Virus record (IMG/VR): IMGVR_UViG_3300020118_000445
Span: 1-38,204 of that record
Strand: one strand, 5' to 3'
Source of the DNA: a virus
Length of the DNA stretch: 38,204 nt
Shown: positions 11,712 to 23,567 of the stretch, in pieces
Position numbering within the stretch: position 1 is the first letter of the stretch
How the letters are laid out: each line of letters begins with the position of its first letter
The notes under the pieces: generated by a model
The model's input: only the letters and a program-made list of their open reading frames with translations
The model's database searches: none
What the model was told of the DNA's origin: nothing
Made by a program: the position numbers and the translations under genes

Positions 11712-11849
11712 TTATACTCCCAACCCCAACCCCGACCCCGACCGCGATCGCGACCCCGACCACGACCCCGACCGCGACCACGACCACGACCACGACCGCG
11801 ACCACGACCACGACTTATCAAAACCTGTCAGGATCAATGCTTGGTTCAT
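11712..11849 (-). CDS. Ser-Trp/Arg/Gly dipeptide-repeat small ORF
   Basis: This is a 45-residue ORF whose ATG overlaps the upstream stop as ATGA, behind AAAGGG. After 12 ordinary residues it becomes 14 dipeptides of Ser followed by Trp, Arg or Gly, then LGLGV and a stop. The dipeptides are the direct reading of a 16-unit hexamer repeat. Coupling and the next gene's start six bases after its stop argue that it is translated. However, the hexamer lacks stops in several frames, so the ORF may be a by-product of the repeat. Confidence 0.4.
   Translation of the reverse strand: MNQALILTGFDKSWSWSRSWSWSWSRSGSWSGSRSRSGSGLGLGV
11719..11814. repeat. Degenerate 6-bp tandem repeat, 16 units
   Basis: Sixteen consecutive hexamers fit C-[CAG]-C-[AG]-A-[CT]. 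Most are CACGAC, CGCGAC or CCCGAC, with two CCCAAC at the left end. The tract is far richer in C and G than its surroundings. Units vary mainly at their second base, as expected for slippage followed by point change. Confidence 0.9.
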
Positions 11850-13050: not shown

Positions 13051-13728
13051 TTATAGTTCCTTTCTTGGTGCAGATTCCCTCAAGAGCTCAAGGAGCTTCT
13101 CGGATTGCGCGATCCTCCATTCGGATCTTTTAGAAGCAGAACCAGCATAAGCAGCAGCATAAGCAGCAGCATAAGCAGCATAAGCAGCAGTAGCATAAGT
13201 AGCATCAGCAGCAGTAGCAGCATTAGCAGCAGTAGCAGCAGTAGCAGCAGTAGCATAAGTAGCATCAGCAGCAGCAGCAGTCCATTGCTCTTTTGTTATA
13301 TCTTCGCCGTTTAATTTTTTAGAATAAAGATCAGCGACCTCCTGGATCGCTTTCCGTTGCCGGTCCGTCCTCGCGAACTGCAACACGCCATACTTTTCAT
13401 TAACCAGCAGCCAAACTGCAAACATTGGCCATACATTCGAGAGATCAACACCCACTGGGACAGCGCTCAAGAACCTCTCAGGCCACGTCATGGCGAGCCC
13501 GTTCGGCAGGCTTTCGAATATCCCGTCCTCAAGTCTAGCTAGGATCCTGGGGATGCCGAGTTTATCTTCATAGTCCGCGTGGTCACCAGAATGAACTGTG
13601 CACCCGACGGCGCAACCCTTTCCATTCTCCCAGTATTGTCCCTTGACGATTTCATCCGCTAGGGCATGAGCTTGGATACGAGCCAAATATTTTTCCTTGA
13701 TCTCGGGTTTACCGTGAAAAGACAGCAT
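13051..13728 (-). CDS. Phage protein with Ala/Tyr/Thr-rich repeat domain
   Basis: The protein has 225 residues. Residues 1-145 form a conserved-looking globular part (GKGCAVGCTVHSGDHADYE near 37-55 and WPERFLSAVPVG near 82-93) that I recall from many uncharacterised phage proteins. Residues about 149-200 are a low-complexity run of A-T-A-A, A-Y-A-A and A-D-A-T-Y units encoded by imperfect GCA/GCT trinucleotides. A charged helical end follows. The Ala-rich repeat varies in length between relatives of this family (recollection). Function is unknown. It ends three bases before the small membrane-protein gene. Confidence 0.7.
   Translation of the reverse strand: MLSFHGKPEIKEKYLARIQAHALADEIVKGQYWENGKGCAVGCTVHSGDHADYEDKLGIPRILARLEDGIFESLPNGLAMTWPERFLSAVPVGVDLSNVWPMFAVWLLVNEKYGVLQFARTDRQRKAIQEVADLYSKKLNGEDITKEQWTAAAADATYATAATAATAANAATAADATYATAAYAAYAAAYAAAYAGSASKRSEWRIAQSEKLLELLRESAPRKEL
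13143..13281. repeat. Imperfect trinucleotide (GCA-type) repeat within a gene
   Basis: The plus strand reads almost entirely as AGC, ATA and AGT triplets in groups, giving poly-Ala/Thr/Tyr in the coding strand and open frames on both strands. It lies in frame inside the gene at 13051-13728, so expansions and contractions would keep the frame. Confidence 0.85.
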
Positions 13729-15813: not shown

Positions 15814-16011
15814 ACAATACCGCGCAACACTGGACGACACTACACTAGACAGCACCATACGATACACAACTGTACCTTACTCACTTTACTTAACTCAACT
15901 TAACTCAACTTTACACCACAGTACTTGACAGAACGCGACCTTTCGCCTTACTACACTACATCACGCACAAATGGACTTTACAATACTGTATTATGCTTGA
16001 CGGTACGTCAC
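15814..16011. repeat. Five-base phased AC array (ACNNN; GTNNN on the other strand)
   Basis: The dinucleotide AC recurs every five bases while the three bases between vary. In phase one AC occurs at 15814, 15819 and at every fifth base from 15829 to 15879, with only 15824 missing. After a one-base contraction it occurs at every fifth base from 15883 to 15938, then at 15953, 15958 and 15963. A third phase holds 15975, 15980, 15985, 16000, 16005 and 16010. About 34 of 40 slots are exact. The plus strand is poor in G. No gene is visible. It fills the gap between convergent genes, and its right end touches the last codons of the gene at 16008-16595. No function is known to me. Confidence 0.85.
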
Positions 16012-16595
16012 TCATTCATTTCAGTGAATTCCACCACCGAAAATTGTCCAAAATATCCTGATTTCTGAACTCGAAAAGAACCAATGCCGGATCTTTTTCC
16101 TGCATCATTCAAAATATTGAGAGTCGTTTGTGGAGAGATTAAATCATCATCAATCGTGATTTCAAATTGAGCATTCCATCGATCAAATCTCGGACGACAA
16201 ACAGCTACAGCACCTTTCAGGTGATTCGTGGCTTTACGAATATCCACTTCGAATTTCTTCAAAGGGACTCCATCATCATCGATCAAGAGAGCAAACTCTT
16301 GAGAAGGTCTAAAGACTCCACCGGCAATGGCTTTGTAGCTTTTTCTTGAAGAATTGGTTTGTTTGTAATCTCCAGCCACATGAGCAAAAGCTCCAGAGAT
16401 ATATCCCATGGGAATATAAAAATCACCTTTCTCCGTCTTGTAGGCATAAGACTCAGCAATCTCTCTAGGAGTTAGTTCAATCTTATCTTTCTTTTTTTTC
16501 CCTTTTGTCCCTAAGAGATTAAAAAGTTCCTCTTCTCTCATTCTGTGATGCATCAAAGGAGTGTTTCCTTTGATCTTGACTTGAATTCGTTTCAT
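16008..16595 (-). CDS. Phage protein of unknown function next to the pentamer array
   Basis: The protein has 195 residues. It starts IQVKIKGNTPLMHHRM. A Lys-rich insert lies near 30-40, then ELTPREIAESYAY (40-52). The end has a glycine-containing loop, GKRSGIGSFRVQKSGYFGQF, near 164-183, then a beta strand. A KGNTPLLMH-type start and the G-x-G-x-F-R ending recur in uncharacterised phage proteins (recollection). The beta-rich layout with a late glycine loop loosely recalls RAMP/Cas7-like folds, but I cannot show homology. It is in one operon with the nuclease upstream (26-base gap, AAAGGATGG site). Its stop lies at the edge of the array, so the mRNA 3' end would carry GUNNN repeats. Confidence 0.65.
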   Translation of the reverse strand: MKRIQVKIKGNTPLMHHRMREEELFNLLGTKGKKKKDKIELTPREIAESYAYKTEKGDFYIPMGYISGAFAHVAGDYKQTNSSRKSYKAIAGGVFRPSQEFALLIDDDGVPLKKFEVDIRKATNHLKGAVAVCRPRFDRWNAQFEITIDDDLISPQTTLNILNDAGKRSGIGSFRVQKSGYFGQFSVVEFTEMNE

Positions 16596-16621
16596 CTTCC
16601 ATCCTTTCAGGCAATAAAATA

Positions 16622-16984
16622 CTATCCCCTGATTCTTTCAATACACTCAGCAATTGCGAGAAGCATTTCATCATTGAAAGCTTCTACTCTAAAAACTGTA
16701 TAATGATTTATTTCATAAACTTTATCCTTTCTTAAATCTCTTTTTTTTTGGCTACGTTTCTCATGAATGCTTCCATCTATTTCAATGACATATTTGAATT
16801 TGTGATTGATCACATCCGGGATGTAATGCATCCAGGGTTTGTTGTATTCACCTCTCTCATGCTCAAGTCCACTTTTCTTCCAAAAGTCCTGAAACCATTT
16901 TTCAGATTGAGGTAAGTTAGAATTTAATCGTTGAGCTACAAGTTGAAGATCTCTCTTTTTTTTTGTCCGTTTCAATTTCATCAT
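16622..16984 (-). CDS. DUF559/Vsr-like PD-(D/E)XK endonuclease
   Basis: The protein has 120 residues. It shows the DUF559-type nuclease core: a SEKWF helix with E28, YIPDV with D57, VIEIDGSIH with E68 and D70, a basic RSQKKRDLRKDK helix and a YTVFRV strand. D57, E68 and D70 are the likely metal ligands. Such small single-domain enzymes are related to very-short-patch repair and homing-type nucleases. The N-terminal 20 residues are very basic and may grip DNA. Two ATGs lie in tandem at the start. It heads the operon with the unknown 195-residue protein and is divergent from the structured RNA. Confidence 0.75.
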   Translation of the reverse strand: MMKLKRTKKKRDLQLVAQRLNSNLPQSEKWFQDFWKKSGLEHERGEYNKPWMHYIPDVINHKFKYVIEIDGSIHEKRSQKKRDLRKDKVYEINHYTVFRVEAFNDEMLLAIAECIERIRG

Positions 16985-16990
16985 TACTAT
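16963..16990 (+). promoter_or_regulatory. Candidate promoter for the structured RNA
   Basis: TTGTCC at 16963-16968 and TACTAT at 16985-16990 are 16 bases apart, each four of six to consensus. The predicted start near 16997 is just upstream of the first long stem. It overlaps the 5' end of the leftward nuclease gene. Confidence 0.3.
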
Positions 16991-16996
16991 CTACTT

Positions 16997-17465
16997 CCAT
17001 TCATTCTGACCCAAGATCCGAACGGAGGTGAGACACAACAAGGCCAACGAGAAAGAATCCCTAGAGATTCAATCCCTGCCTTGTTGTGTGTCGAAAGCTT
17101 TCTGACCCTGAGTCGTCAGGAGGCTCAACACAGGACGTGTGATGTGACAGCACACGTCCCAGAGGGTTTCACTTCGTCCACGCTGCACGTGTCCGCGGTT
17201 ACCGCGCTGTCCCCTCTAAGGATTTACTCCTCACAAGTCCCAGCTCGTAGGGCTATAGAACTCTGCCGATGGCCCTAAACTGTCTCGATCATCGCCCGTT
17301 GTTTGAGATGTCCAACGATGACCGTACTACCCACTTCTCATTGAGTGCGCTTTATTTTGATGATTGATTTAGTTACCCGAAGGGTGCTAGATTCGACTCA
17401 TCAAGATTACACGCAAGTATCTTATTAACCCTCTTGACTTCAAAACTCAAGGGGGTTTTTGTTTT
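16997..17465 (+). ncRNA. Large structured non-coding RNA ending in an intrinsic terminator
   Basis: About 470 bases without a credible gene but dense in helices. They are: 17033-17044 with 17078-17089 (12 perfect pairs, enclosing 17055-17059 with 17066-17070); 17107-17111 with 17116-17120 (GTCG loop); 17133-17141 with 17151-17159 (9 pairs); 17161-17166 with 17212-17217, enclosing 17194-17198 with 17202-17206; 17248-17253 with 17272-17277; 17289-17294 with 17316-17321; and 17375-17378 with 17382-17385. The terminator at 17428-17465 fixes the plus strand. Base composition is richer in G and C than nearby genes. It matches no RNA class I could recognise (not tmRNA, RNase P or tRNA by landmark motifs). 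It could be a free RNA or a long leader of rusA. Confidence 0.65.
17428..17465 (+). terminator. Intrinsic terminator before rusA
   Basis: ACCCTCTTGA (17428-17437) pairs with TCAAGGGGGT (17447-17456), ten pairs including one G-U, with a nine-base loop. It is followed by TTTTGTTTT. It ends three bases before the rusA ATG, so either rusA is read from terminator read-through or the hairpin is a control switch. Confidence 0.85.
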
Positions 17466-17468
17466 GAT

Positions 17469-17831
17469 ATGCAAGTGATTGAATTTGAAATGCCTGGCCT
17501 CCCTCCCCTCCAAAACATCGCTCTCTTAGTCCATCGCATGAAACGATACCGACTTAGTCAAGAATGGCATGAGCTTGTTTGGGCTTACGCTAGCCCTCAG
17601 AGGCCTTCGAAACCCTTTCGGAGGTATCAGCTCAGCCTCACTCGCTTCTCGTCTTCTGAGCCCGATTACGACGGTCTGGTAGCCAGTTTTAAATGGGTCG
17701 TCGATGGACTCAAACATGCCCAGATCATTCAAGACGACAAACTGTCTCAGTCCGGCCCCTGGAACTGTTCCTGGATCAAATGCAAAAAAAAAGAAGGAAA
17801 GATCCGAGTCCGAGTTGAATCTCGGGATTAA
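17469..17831 (+). CDS. rusA: RusA-like Holliday junction resolvase
   Basis: The protein has 120 residues. It shows the RusA pattern: FEMPGLPPLQN start (6-16), EPDYDGLVASFKWVVDGL with D66, D68 and K75, and a later QDD with D89 and D90. These correspond to the acidic metal ligands and the lysine of E. coli RusA. The enzyme cuts four-way DNA junctions as a dimer and would resolve recombination and replication intermediates before packaging, working with the RecT-like protein. No Shine-Dalgarno sequence lies at normal distance, since the terminator occupies that space. Its TAA overlaps the stop of the convergent spike gene. Confidence 0.85.
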   Translation: MQVIEFEMPGLPPLQNIALLVHRMKRYRLSQEWHELVWAYASPQRPSKPFRRYQLSLTRFSSSEPDYDGLVASFKWVVDGLKHAQIIQDDKLSQSGPWNCSWIKCKKKEGKIRVRVESRD

Positions 17832-19785: not shown

Positions 19786-20781
19786 ATGTCAAAAAAAGTT
19801 CTCATTACAGGCTCAGCAGGATTTGTCGGTCATCATTTTGTGGATTACTTCTTAGAAAAAACAGATTGGGACATCGTTGGACTCGATTCCTTCAAACACC
19901 GGGGCGATTCCATGCGAGTTCAAACTCACGAACGCTATCAGATCTATACCTGCGATTTGACGACTCCCATCTCCTATCGGCTCGCCTCTCAAATCGGAGA
20001 AATCGATTATTTGCTTTCTGTAGCCAGTGAATCCCATGTCGATCGATCCATCACCGATCCCGTGCCTTTTGTGAAAAACAATGTCGATTTGATTTTGAAC
20101 GTCTTGGAATACGCTCGCGTCGTGAAGCCCAAAGTCTTTTTACAAATCTCAACCGATGAAGTCTATGGCGCAGCTCCGGAAGGCATCGATCATCAGGAAT
20201 GGTCCAGTATTCTTCCCTCCAATCCCTACTCGGCTTCTAAAGCCGCTCAAGAAGCCATTGCGATTTCTTATTGGCGTACCTTTGGAGTTCCTCTCATTCT
20301 CACCAACACCATGAACATGCTGGGTAAAAGGCAAGATCCAGAAAAGTATCTCCCCATGCTCATTCATCGCATCGCTCATGACCTGAAAGTCATCGTGCAT
20401 GGAACCCCAGAATACATCGGAAAACGCCATTATTTGGATTGCACGAATCTAGCCGACGCCGTTCATTTCTTGATCACAAAAACCACTCCCACTCTCTACC
20501 ACGATGATCCAAAAAAGATCATTCTACCGGATCGATACAACATTGTGGGAGATGTTGAATTGGATAATCTGCAATTGGCTGAAGCCGTCGCAGCCATTCT
20601 TCAAAAAAATCTCAATGTGGAATTTTTGGATTTTCATCAAGCTAGGCCTGGACATGACCGCAGATATTCGTTAGATGGGTCTAAAATAAAAAACTTAGGC
20701 TGGAGCGCTCCGATTTCACTGGAGCAAACCTTGAATGAAATCATTGAGTACACGTTGAAAAATCCCATTTGGTTGAAATAA
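19786..20781 (+). CDS. NAD-dependent sugar dehydratase (RmlB-like SDR)
   Basis: The protein has 331 residues. It has a Rossmann GSAGFVG at 9-15, a SESHVDRSI stretch at 81-89 typical of nucleotide-sugar 4,6-dehydratases, TDEVYG at 123-128 and catalytic YSASK at 148-152. RPGHDRRYSLD follows in the C-terminal part. It most likely converts dTDP-glucose (or a related NDP-sugar) to the 4-keto-6-deoxy sugar. It is about 20 residues shorter than RmlB of E. coli but has all landmark motifs. It starts the rightward sugar module, divergent from the spike gene with a 74-base gap, and is followed three bases later by the oxygenase gene. Confidence 0.85.
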   Translation: MSKKVLITGSAGFVGHHFVDYFLEKTDWDIVGLDSFKHRGDSMRVQTHERYQIYTCDLTTPISYRLASQIGEIDYLLSVASESHVDRSITDPVPFVKNNVDLILNVLEYARVVKPKVFLQISTDEVYGAAPEGIDHQEWSSILPSNPYSASKAAQEAIAISYWRTFGVPLILTNTMNMLGKRQDPEKYLPMLIHRIAHDLKVIVHGTPEYIGKRHYLDCTNLADAVHFLITKTTPTLYHDDPKKIILPDRYNIVGDVELDNLQLAEAVAAILQKNLNVEFLDFHQARPGHDRRYSLDGSKIKNLGWSAPISLEQTLNEIIEYTLKNPIWLK

Positions 20782-20784
20782 TCC

Positions 20785-21549
20785 ATGATCAATACAGAAA
20801 AAAAACTAGAGATCTTTCAGAACCTGAATGAGTACAAAAAAAAATATCAAGAAGCAAAACCTTTTTCTCATCTGGTGATTGATGAATATTTTGATCATCA
20901 ATACTTGTTGAATATCGAGCGAGAATTCCCTAAGCCAGGAACTACCTGGTGGAAGTATCACAATCCTTTTGAAAAGAAGTTTGCCTTTGATCAATTCGAA
21001 TGGATGCCTGCTTTGATTCAAGACTTCATCATGCAGCTTCAAAGCTTTCCCTTCATTCATTTCTTAGAGCAAGTCACTGGTATCGATGGACTTCTGCCGG
21101 ATCCCAAGCTCAACGGAGGAGGCTTGCATCAAATCGTGCGAGGCGGGAAACTCGATATCCATGCCGATTACAACTATCATCCCCTAACAAAACTTGATCG
21201 AAGATTGAATGTCCTCATTTATTTAAATCAAGACTGGCTGCCTTCCTGGGCAGGCGCTTTGGAGTTTTGGGATCAAAAAATGACTCAGTGTCAAAAAGAA
21301 ATTCTGCCTCTTTTCAATCGCCTGGTGATTTTTTCAACGACCGACATTTCTTTTCATGGGCATCCCGAGCCTCTTTTATGCCCAGAGGATCGAACCAGAA
21401 AATCCATTGCGCTTTATTATTACACCAATGGCCGCCCCGAGCATGAAAGATCAGCGCCTCACTCCACTCTTTATCAAAAGCGCCCTCAAGATGAAGAGAG
21501 TCCTGAAATGGCGGATCTCAGACAGAAGCGCGCGAAAGGGCGGATATGA
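20785..21549 (+). CDS. 2-oxoglutarate/Fe(II)-dependent oxygenase
   Basis: The protein has 254 residues. The iron-binding facial triad is visible: IHAD with H126 and D128, and a second histidine in SFHGHPEP (H191 or H193). R205 in the RKSIALYYYT strand is the likely 2-oxoglutarate ligand. The arrangement fits the prolyl-4-hydroxylase-like superfamily seen in polysaccharide clusters, where such enzymes hydroxylate sugars or peptides. The C-terminal 35 residues are highly charged. The stop overlaps the methyltransferase start by four bases. The substrate is unknown but its neighbours point to a sugar or glycan. Confidence 0.8.
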   Translation: MINTEKKLEIFQNLNEYKKKYQEAKPFSHLVIDEYFDHQYLLNIEREFPKPGTTWWKYHNPFEKKFAFDQFEWMPALIQDFIMQLQSFPFIHFLEQVTGIDGLLPDPKLNGGGLHQIVRGGKLDIHADYNYHPLTKLDRRLNVLIYLNQDWLPSWAGALEFWDQKMTQCQKEILPLFNRLVIFSTTDISFHGHPEPLLCPEDRTRKSIALYYYTNGRPEHERSAPHSTLYQKRPQDEESPEMADLRQKRAKGRI

Positions 21550-22226
21550 ATCGAGAAGAAATCGCGAGGCTTTACATCCAAGGCAAAGGCATTGAAATCG
21601 GAGCGCATCATCATCCCTTTCCCGTCATGCCCTGGCAATTCAAGGTGACTTACATCGATAAATTCCCAAAAGATGTTTTAGTGCCGATGTTCCCCGAGAT
21701 CCCAGCGTCTCAAGTCATTGAACCTCAGATCGTCACTAACGGAATGACTTTAGACGGGATCGCGTCTGAATCCCAATATTTTGTGATTGCTTCTCACGTC
21801 ATTGAACACATGGAAAGCGCTTTGGTAGCGATTGAGAATCATTTGAGAGTGACGAAGCCCGGTGGAATTATTTTTTACGCCATTCCTGATTTCACGAATC
21901 CTTTTGATAAAAAAAGAGCCATCACCTCTTATGCTCACCACGAAACGGATTATCATCAGTACACGTATCAACCATTGGATTTCCAAGCCAATCTTCAGCG
22001 GCATTATTTAGAGTATCTCTCCGTTGTGGATCAAATCACGGGAGAAAGAGCCATTCAGATCGCTGATGAGTACATGCAAAAAAACCGGGATATTCATTTC
22101 CATGTCTTTAATCAGGATGAGATTTTAAGAATTTTCACTCGATTCAAAAAGCTTTTTTATACCGTGGAATTCTATGAATACTTGCCCAAACATTTTGAAC
22201 ACTTTGTGGTGATCAGAAAAAAATGA
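21546..22226 (+). CDS. SAM-dependent methyltransferase (class I)
   Basis: The protein has 226 residues. The SAM-binding motif I is GKGIEIGA (13-20). The post-I region contains YIDKF, and FVIASHVIEHM (about 78-88) and LRVTKPGGIIFYAIPD (about 100-115) are the methyltransferase motifs that position the acceptor. It is typical of the Methyltransf_11-like family. It overlaps both neighbours by four bases, so it is translationally coupled in the sugar module and probably modifies a sugar or lipid-linked intermediate. Confidence 0.85.
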   Translation: MNREEIARLYIQGKGIEIGAHHHPFPVMPWQFKVTYIDKFPKDVLVPMFPEIPASQVIEPQIVTNGMTLDGIASESQYFVIASHVIEHMESALVAIENHLRVTKPGGIIFYAIPDFTNPFDKKRAITSYAHHETDYHQYTYQPLDFQANLQRHYLEYLSVVDQITGERAIQIADEYMQKNRDIHFHVFNQDEILRIFTRFKKLFYTVEFYEYLPKHFEHFVVIRKK

Positions 22227-22450
22227 ATGACACTGAACCTCAAGATATTCTGAGACTGCATGCTGATTTTGATCCCACCACGGTGATTTGCTTGAGCCAC
22301 AAAAAAGGAGAGTTCATGGTGGATTTTTCTACTCCTTGTGAGCTTCATACTCTCACTTTGCTTTCAAAGATGTTAGAAACCGAAATCATTCATCTCACTC
22401 AAATCATGATGGCAGAAAGAAGAAACGATGATAAAAATCCTCCTCATTAG
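22223..22450 (+). CDS. Small hypothetical protein in the sugar module
   Basis: The protein has 75 residues, acidic with His and Met clusters. It overlaps the methyltransferase by four bases and the glycosyltransferase by 23 bases in another frame. No motif is recognised. It may exist mainly to couple translation of the two enzymes. Confidence 0.45.
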   Translation: MNDTEPQDILRLHADFDPTTVICLSHKKGEFMVDFSTPCELHTLTLLSKMLETEIIHLTQIMMAERRNDDKNPPH

Positions 22451-23567
22451 CCCTTACCCCAGAGATGCTAACTCCATGTGGAGAAGTGTCGGTCCCATGA
22501 AGTATCTGGCCAAGAATTCCAATGGGAAATATCAAATCAAGGTGCATCCCATCGGCCAAGACATTGCTTGGGATGAGATGGCCGATGTCGATCTCGTCTT
22601 TCTTCATCGCCCCTGCAGGCAAGATGATCTCACGATTCTTAAGATCGCACGCAATCTCAATATCCCGGTCTGGGTGGAATACGATGATTGGCTTTTTGAT
22701 TTACCTTCTTGGAATCCACACAAAGCCTCTTATGACAATCCAGGATTGCAATCCGTCATGGCGAGCTGTGTGGCTTGCGCCGATGTGATCTCGGTCACCA
22801 CGAGCGCTCTTTATGAAAAATTCAGAATCATCAATCCCAACGTCGTCATCGTTCCCAATGCCTACAGGTCTGATCTATTCCCTTACCGGAAAAAAGAAAC
22901 GCCTAAACGCCAACGCGCATTTTTTTGGCGAGGCTCCAATACTCATGAAGGTGATATCCATTCCGTCTTAGACGGCATCAAACAACTCCCAGCTCCCACC
23001 TACTACCTGGGATCCCTCCCCTGGAATATCCAAGCGCAACTCAAGCAAGGGCAGGCCTTCATCGTGGGTCATCAAGATCCGTTTATCTACATGCGTTATA
23101 TTTACAATCAAGCCTATCAGGTCATGATCAATCCTTTGATTGATTGTTTTTTCAATAGAGTGAAATCCAATATCGCCTACATCGAAGCCATGCATGCAGG
23201 AGCGCTTTGCGTGGCTCCTGACATGCCGGAATGGAGAAGGCCAGGAGTGATTACTTACATTCCTCATCGATCCGATGATTTCTTAAGAGCCTGCACTCAA
23301 GCCATTGAAATGGATGAGGCGACTTTCCAAGATCAAGTCGAAGATGGCTTTGCCGATATGAAATCCATGTATGATATCACGCATATCAATCAAATCAGGC
23401 TTTCAATGATTGAGGCCATGCTGGACAAAGAATTCAAACGAAATGAAAGAGATCCTTGGGATCAGCTCACGGCTTTATGGGCCATCAGCCATTTGAAAGG
23501 AAAACCTCTAGCTCCGGTCAATGAACAAACCTTGCAAGAAAAACATCTTACGGTAGAATCTACTTAA
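22428..23567 (+). CDS. Glycosyltransferase, GT-B fold (GT4-like)
   Basis: The protein has 379 residues and a GT-B layout. The N-terminal Rossmann half (ILLISPYP start, DLVFLHRP near 54-61, WVEYDDW near 82-88) is followed by a linker with VVIVPNAYR near 138-146. The C-terminal half carries FFWRGSNTHEGD near 164-175 and a donor-site region NIAYIEAMHAGALCVAP near 247-263. The EAMHAG motif is the usual nucleotide-sugar-binding segment. It would transfer an activated sugar, perhaps the one made by the dehydratase. It starts within the previous gene and ends the sugar module. Confidence 0.8.
   Translation: MIKILLISPYPRDANSMWRSVGPMKYLAKNSNGKYQIKVHPIGQDIAWDEMADVDLVFLHRPCRQDDLTILKIARNLNIPVWVEYDDWLFDLPSWNPHKASYDNPGLQSVMASCVACADVISVTTSALYEKFRIINPNVVIVPNAYRSDLFPYRKKETPKRQRAFFWRGSNTHEGDIHSVLDGIKQLPAPTYYLGSLPWNIQAQLKQGQAFIVGHQDPFIYMRYIYNQAYQVMINPLIDCFFNRVKSNIAYIEAMHAGALCVAPDMPEWRRPGVITYIPHRSDDFLRACTQAIEMDEATFQDQVEDGFADMKSMYDITHINQIRLSMIEAMLDKEFKRNERDPWDQLTALWAISHLKGKPLAPVNEQTLQEKHLTVEST

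Follow-up and report, generated by a model that had tools for sequence, protein, structure and literature searches.

The analysed DNA, here called the window, corresponds to an entire IMG/VR viral record (38,204 bases), whose genes for a terminase, a portal, a capsid, a RecT-like annealing protein and a RusA-like resolvase indicate a tailed dsDNA phage. A divergent intergenic gap separates a DUF559 endonuclease-like gene (16622..16984, minus strand; PF04480, E 1.7e-10), read leftward from 16984, from a gene for a RusA-like Holliday junction resolvase (17469..17831, plus strand; recognized by PHROG hits), read rightward from 17469. The gap is occupied by a structured RNA, predicted to form a whole transcription unit (16995..17465, plus strand); it was delimited by its fold and its homologues, with an estimated 5' end and a 3' end placed at the terminator. 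A possible promoter (TTGTCC-16-TACTAT; 16963..16990, plus strand) matches at 8 of 12 positions, under the threshold of the scanner. Other features of the window include (i) a block of sugar- and methyl-modifying genes (19786-23567; nucleotide-sugar epimerase/dehydratase-like, 2OG-Fe(II) oxygenase, methyltransferase and glycosyltransferase), partly conserved in the related loci L006 and L007, (ii) a short tandem array (13135-13280) within the Ala/Thr/Tyr-rich C-terminal part of a 225-aa gene (13051-13728), and (iii) a short ACCACG/ACCGCG hexamer tandem array (11729-11814).

The segment 16985-17470 folds with -164.3 kcal/mol, compared with -127.4 +/- 5.3 kcal/mol for 100 dinucleotide shuffles, none of which folded as well (z -6.94). 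Among 634 segments of 240 nt taken from both strands of the 38-kb record, the one starting at 16921 on the plus strand ranked second by energy excess. Most of the excess lies in 16990-17170 and 17340-17465; the middle part (17161-17400) alone does not fold exceptionally. The first-pass annotation had proposed an unrecognised large structured RNA with eight or more helices on this strand, and at least eight were found with high pairing probability: 17033-44/17078-89, 17096-106/17115-125, 17133-41/17151-59, 17248-56/17269-77, 17282-88/17303-09, 17354-63/17398-407, 17364-78/17382-96 and 17427-37/17447-57. The higher G+C content that it had also noted holds for the first half of the RNA relative to the left side (54% at 17000-17250 vs. 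33-36% at 16500-17000) and fails on the right side (51% at 17500-17750). Its view that the region holds no credible gene and ends in a terminator was borne out. A 115-aa open reading frame with a TTG start (16931-17278) has no family match and no counterpart in the homologues described below, and an intrinsic terminator (AACCCTCTTGA-9nt-TCAAGGGGGTT-TTTG; 17427..17463, plus strand) is supported by eye and by base-pair probability; a simple terminator scanner gave no match because the loop is longer than 8 nt.

DNA searches with the RNA, performed by blast of phages, plasmids and E. coli genomes, returned nothing above chance. Single-protein scans for relatives of the phage (with RusA, the product of a 195-aa gene and the terminase) gave one relative per protein, alignment-based scans with the terminase and the capsid disclosed a phage family, and the capsid alignment yielded 51 related viral loci. 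The RNA was then searched in 30 records, drawn from the capsid-alignment loci and other relatives, and a 30-nt core match (93%) was obtained in two contigs, G019 (E 1.3e-7) and G020 (E 2.0e-7), whose copies of the RNA have the same sequence (locus L138). This homologue carries a 33-nt core, scattered motifs in the same order, a terminator and a core stem with compensatory changes; alone, it folds weakly (z -1.7). A core pattern (CCCGNNGTTTGAGATGTCCNNC) run over 2.9 million viral contigs recovered G019, G020 and one new contig, G034 (locus L156). The RNA of L156 shares 80.6% identity with that of the window over 377 nt (blastn) and 83.7% over the 363 columns that align best; the RusA genes of the two share 61.7% nucleotide and 51% amino acid sequence identity. 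Judged by these values, the RNA is far more conserved than the RusA gene beside it. The lengths of the RNA are approximately 470 nt in the window, 460 nt in L156 and 350 nt in L138. Two further candidates were rejected: a structured intergenic stretch of L007, which is an att-like tRNA fragment, and a strongly folding stretch of G004, which lies in a coding region. The L007 fragment (L007:1680-1735) resembles the 3' half of a tRNA, adjoins an integrase gene and is probably an attP core, which suggests that relatives of the window phage are temperate.

In the alignment of the window with L156, a structure of 99 pairs is paired in 198 of 198 cells. Six helices together contain 10 two-sided compensatory pairs, a result reached by none of 500 shuffles, while controls with slid partners gave 0-1 such pairs; the core stem of L138 adds two more. 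The lack of compensatory changes in homologues, which the first-pass annotation had named as an argument against an RNA, was thus not observed, and neither was the conserved protein frame that it had named as another: the gaps of the alignment include 1- and 2-nt indels, no frame is kept, and each homologue has stops in every reading frame. The kept pairs with their compensatory changes, together with indels that break every frame, identify the segment as a conserved structured RNA. The covariation argues strongly for the helices named here; two near-full-length sequences cannot fix a tertiary fold. The L138 hairpin was misaligned by MAFFT.

One rival explanation is a DNA-level element, i.e., an origin of replication or a site of recombination in which the inverted repeats would form hairpins as DNA; it is suggested by the position of the segment between divergent gene blocks and beside recombination genes. 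The minus strand scores well too (fold z -4.45 for 16985-17470), and the two strands differ little in RNAalifold energy, the plus strand of the window-L156 alignment lying 8.3 standard deviations below column-shuffled alignments (z -8.3) and the minus strand giving z -7.5. Such an element is nevertheless improbable, given that U-tract terminators stand at the same end of all three homologues, that two-sided changes in the consensus folds number 14 on the plus strand vs. 10 on the minus strand, and that the unpaired part of the core is strongly conserved.

Several parts can be distinguished along the RNA, all on the plus strand. A 5' motif (CCCAAGATCCG..CGGAGGTGAG; 17010..17031) is recognisable by eye in all three homologues. 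It is followed by a long hairpin (GACACAACAAGGC/GCCTTGT..GTGTC; 17032..17092) with 13 invariant pairs, whose inner stem (17055-59/17066-70) contains 2 compensatory pairs. A conserved loop segment (CCUGAGUC; 17107..17120) has the form GAGUCGUC in L138 and is common to the window and L156, though the flanking stem of the window is not kept. The next hairpin (GGACGUGUG/CACACGUCC; 17133..17159) varies in sequence and is replaced in the homologues, its counterparts being GGCGU/ACGCC in L156 and UGAAAAC/GUUUUCA in L138. A domain closed by AGAGGG/CCCUCU (17161..17217) encloses two inner hairpins (17179-91 and 17194-206) with 3 two-sided compensatory pairs, and a hairpin UAGGGCU/GGCCCUA (17248..17277) keeps 7 pairs in L156, while GCCGC/GCGGC was found by eye at its place in L138.

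The core itself (UCAUC-GCCC-GUUG-UUUGAGAUGUC-CAAC-GAUGA; 17289..17321) spans 33 nt, of which 29 are invariant in the three homologues. Its outer stem, UCAUC/GAUGA, is replaced by UCUUU/AAAGA in L138, with two compensated pairs. The core stem is interlocked with a further stem, GUCUCGA/UUGAGAU (17282..17309), which L156 retains with a single one-sided change and L138 does not preserve. In the longer forms of the RNA, we hypothesize, the two stems make up a pseudoknot or switch between two states. In the 3' domain, a long hairpin (GAUUUAGUUACCC/GGGUGCUAGAUUC within a covarying outer stem; 17355..17406) contains 2 compensatory pairs. Since L138 is devoid of this hairpin domain, the part common to all copies consists of the core and the hairpin preceding it. 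The terminator also has 2 compensatory pairs with L156, and L138 possesses a terminator of its own; the terminator sequences differ among all three copies.

Searches for additional members were negative. The core pattern gave 7 matches in approximately 85,000 genomes, all of them in unrelated context and devoid of the stem, and these were rejected as chance matches. A relaxed pattern produced 25 further matches in the viral contigs, none with the stem. When 1.47 Mb of loci from related phages were scanned for the core stem with structure taken into account, the true copies scored 24.6-24.8, compared with at most 18.6 for shuffles and all other sequences, and no further copy was found. Three distinct sequences of the RNA are known, and the family looks rare, since no further core-motif member was present in the 2.9 million viral contigs and approximately 85,000 genomes.

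The three carriers come from different metagenomes and differ in their gene content. G019 and G020 belong to the wider capsid family of the window, and the terminase of G034 shares 24% identity with that of the window over half its length. Beyond the RNA and RusA, no DNA similarity or convincing protein similarity was detected between G034 and the window. The RNA is flanked upstream by the DUF559 gene in the window, a ParB-like gene in G034 and a divergent HNH gene in L138, and downstream by RusA in the window and in G034 and by a YqaJ-type nuclease gene in L138; the DUF559 gene is found at this place in the window only. RusA is absent from G019 and G020 although the RNA is present, and G004, a closer relative of the window, has RusA and no RNA. 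Within the records read, of which G034 may be incomplete, no protein is common to the three carriers. Two of the three upstream neighbours are divergent endonuclease genes (DUF559 and HNH), a setting that would suit a self-splicing intron, a ribozyme or an endonuclease-associated RNA. This reading is very unlikely, as the third neighbour is ParB-like, no gene is interrupted and no Rfam intron, HEARO or ribozyme model was matched up to E 5-10.

The region to the left of the gap in the window resembles an RNA-guided locus. A pentamer-phased array (15815-16010, minus strand) shows GT at lag 5 in 28 pairs, compared with 0-6 at lags 3, 4, 6 and 7, and comprises 38 units whose other three positions are close to random. 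It lies directly 3' of the 195-aa gene (16008-16595, minus strand; phrog_4652), whose profile matches the solved Vipr protein of SUSP1 (PDB 36pp, E 1.3e-5). By sequence, the array and this gene look like a variant VIPR RNA-guided system; the published repeat is GGY/NN, and types may use "a related consensus" (PMC13142463, preprint), whereas the repeat of the window array is GU/NNN. The adjoining DUF559 gene (16622-16984, minus strand) is, by adjacency only, a candidate VIPR accessory gene. A longer GT/NNN array, with 105 phased units in several blocks (L004:4606-5470, plus strand), adjoins a homologue (63% identity) of the Vipr-like gene, and no other array scored alike in approximately 1.5 Mb of loci. 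With the Vipr-like gene and array 0.4-1.2 kb away, the RNA might be thought an accessory RNA of this locus. It has, however, no pentamer periodicity, no dinucleotide being clearly in excess at lag 5, and neither G034 nor the first 20 kb of G020 contains a Vipr-like gene, which makes this role hardly probable at all.

The right side of the gap bears on the main rival explanation, in which the RNA would be a cis-acting 5' leader of a RusA/YqaJ recombination-nuclease operon and its terminator an attenuator, with read-through dependent on the fold and possibly governed by two competing core pairings. The order RNA-terminator-RusA is common to the window and L156, only 6 nt separate the U-tract of the terminator from the start of RusA in the window, and in L138 a YqaJ nuclease gene follows the RNA. 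Moreover, AGAGGGTT (17161-68) is fully complementary over 8 nt to the 5' arm of the terminator (17427-34), and two stems, mutually exclusive or interlocked, are possible in the core. For a leader, however, the RNA is very long and far more conserved than its gene; the downstream gene is not the same in all carriers, approximately 140 nt and another hairpin intervene between the RNA and the gene in L138, and the antiterminator complementarity is reduced to 6 nt in L156. We therefore treat the leader as possible, though rather doubtful.

On balance, and with limited confidence, we consider the RNA to be probably a stand-alone noncoding RNA of approximately 470 nt with its own terminator, acting in trans with a host partner or alone. 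Transcription would start in the divergent intergenic region and proceed toward the structural genes, and the RNA would be released at its own terminator and may act in trans as a folded particle, in which a host component would make contact with the core loop (GCCC-GUUG-UUUGAGAUGUC-CAAC); alternatively, by analogy, it may work alone in the manner of ROOL or GOLLD. Action in trans is suggested by the lack of a phage protein common to all carriers and by the much smaller divergence of the RNA compared with the neighbouring gene. Against a stand-alone RNA, the same gene directly follows it in two of the three carriers, with the short spacing to RusA in the window also suiting a leader, and L138, weakly folded alone, has only the core and scattered motifs in common with the others. 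A more specific reading, offered tentatively, is that of a pseudoknotted RNA class that has moved between unrelated phages, sometimes with RusA, and whose invariant core loop would engage a conserved host factor, so that during infection the RNA itself, without a phage protein, would alter the DNA or RNA metabolism of the host or the phage.

Phages are known to carry very few classes of large structured RNA, of which the most familiar, ROOL and GOLLD, have no established function. The RNA would add a compact class, whose near-invariant core and apparent natural transfer between unrelated phages offer a small, testable target, and it indicates that single environmental contigs can still yield rare RNA classes. 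No description of it was found in the literature searched.

Among known systems, lambda 6S RNA (the pR'-tR' leader) is a short transcript of a phage that stops at a terminator, with rightward genes beyond it. The RNA would resemble it in these respects, but has an extensive, covarying fold that is common to phages whose late genes differ. In type III toxin-antitoxin (ToxIN-like) systems, an RNA, a terminator and a gene follow one another, and the same order is present here; unlike in these systems, the gene encodes a RusA-like resolvase rather than an endoribonuclease, and no tandem repeats, as in type III antitoxin RNAs, occur at 16995-17465. The compensatory changes above control place the RNA with covarying structured RNAs. 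A resemblance of two motifs, UGAGAUGU and CAGCUCGU, to 16S rRNA was set aside, as neither the rRNA models of Rfam nor E. coli gave a match.

An Rfam search of the window RNA, recommended in the first-pass annotation, revealed no family at the gathering score or up to E 10, where only weak sub-threshold matches appeared; His leader and others, below gathering and near chance, were rejected. No RNase P, group I/II intron, HEARO or riboswitch class was matched by the three homologues up to E 5-10, nor ROOL, GOLLD or OLE up to E 10 or 5, and ARAGORN detected no tRNA or tmRNA in the window, in agreement with the earlier failure to recognise tmRNA, RNase P, tRNA or intron landmarks. Of the two origins then envisaged, a new class is favoured over a divergent GOLLD or ROOL.

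ROOL and GOLLD, large RNAs of phages and prophages with no established role, have recently been shown to assemble into homo-oligomeric cages made of RNA only, and they frequently lie close to tRNA islands; GOLLD, in many cases longer than 800 nt, keeps its 3' region in all members (PMC12286853). Like ROOL, the RNA is large, highly structured and phage-encoded, with predicted pseudoknots and no known protein partner (PMC12286853); it differs in sequence and in the lack of an Rfam match in the three homologues, and the window has no tRNA island. Like GOLLD, it is an ornate phage-borne RNA. As for nearby tRNA genes, the carriers differ: a tRNA-Asn (gtt) lies approximately 1.1 kb downstream of the copy in G034 (L165:3182-3255, plus strand), and there is no tRNA in the window or in the read parts of G019 and G020. 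Unlike the universal 3' region of GOLLD, its 3' domain is missing in L138, and it has no Rfam match. These comparisons support a new RNA family that is not a member of ROOL or GOLLD, being set apart from them by Rfam models and sequence alone; by analogy, these two are the closest to the way in which the RNA would work.
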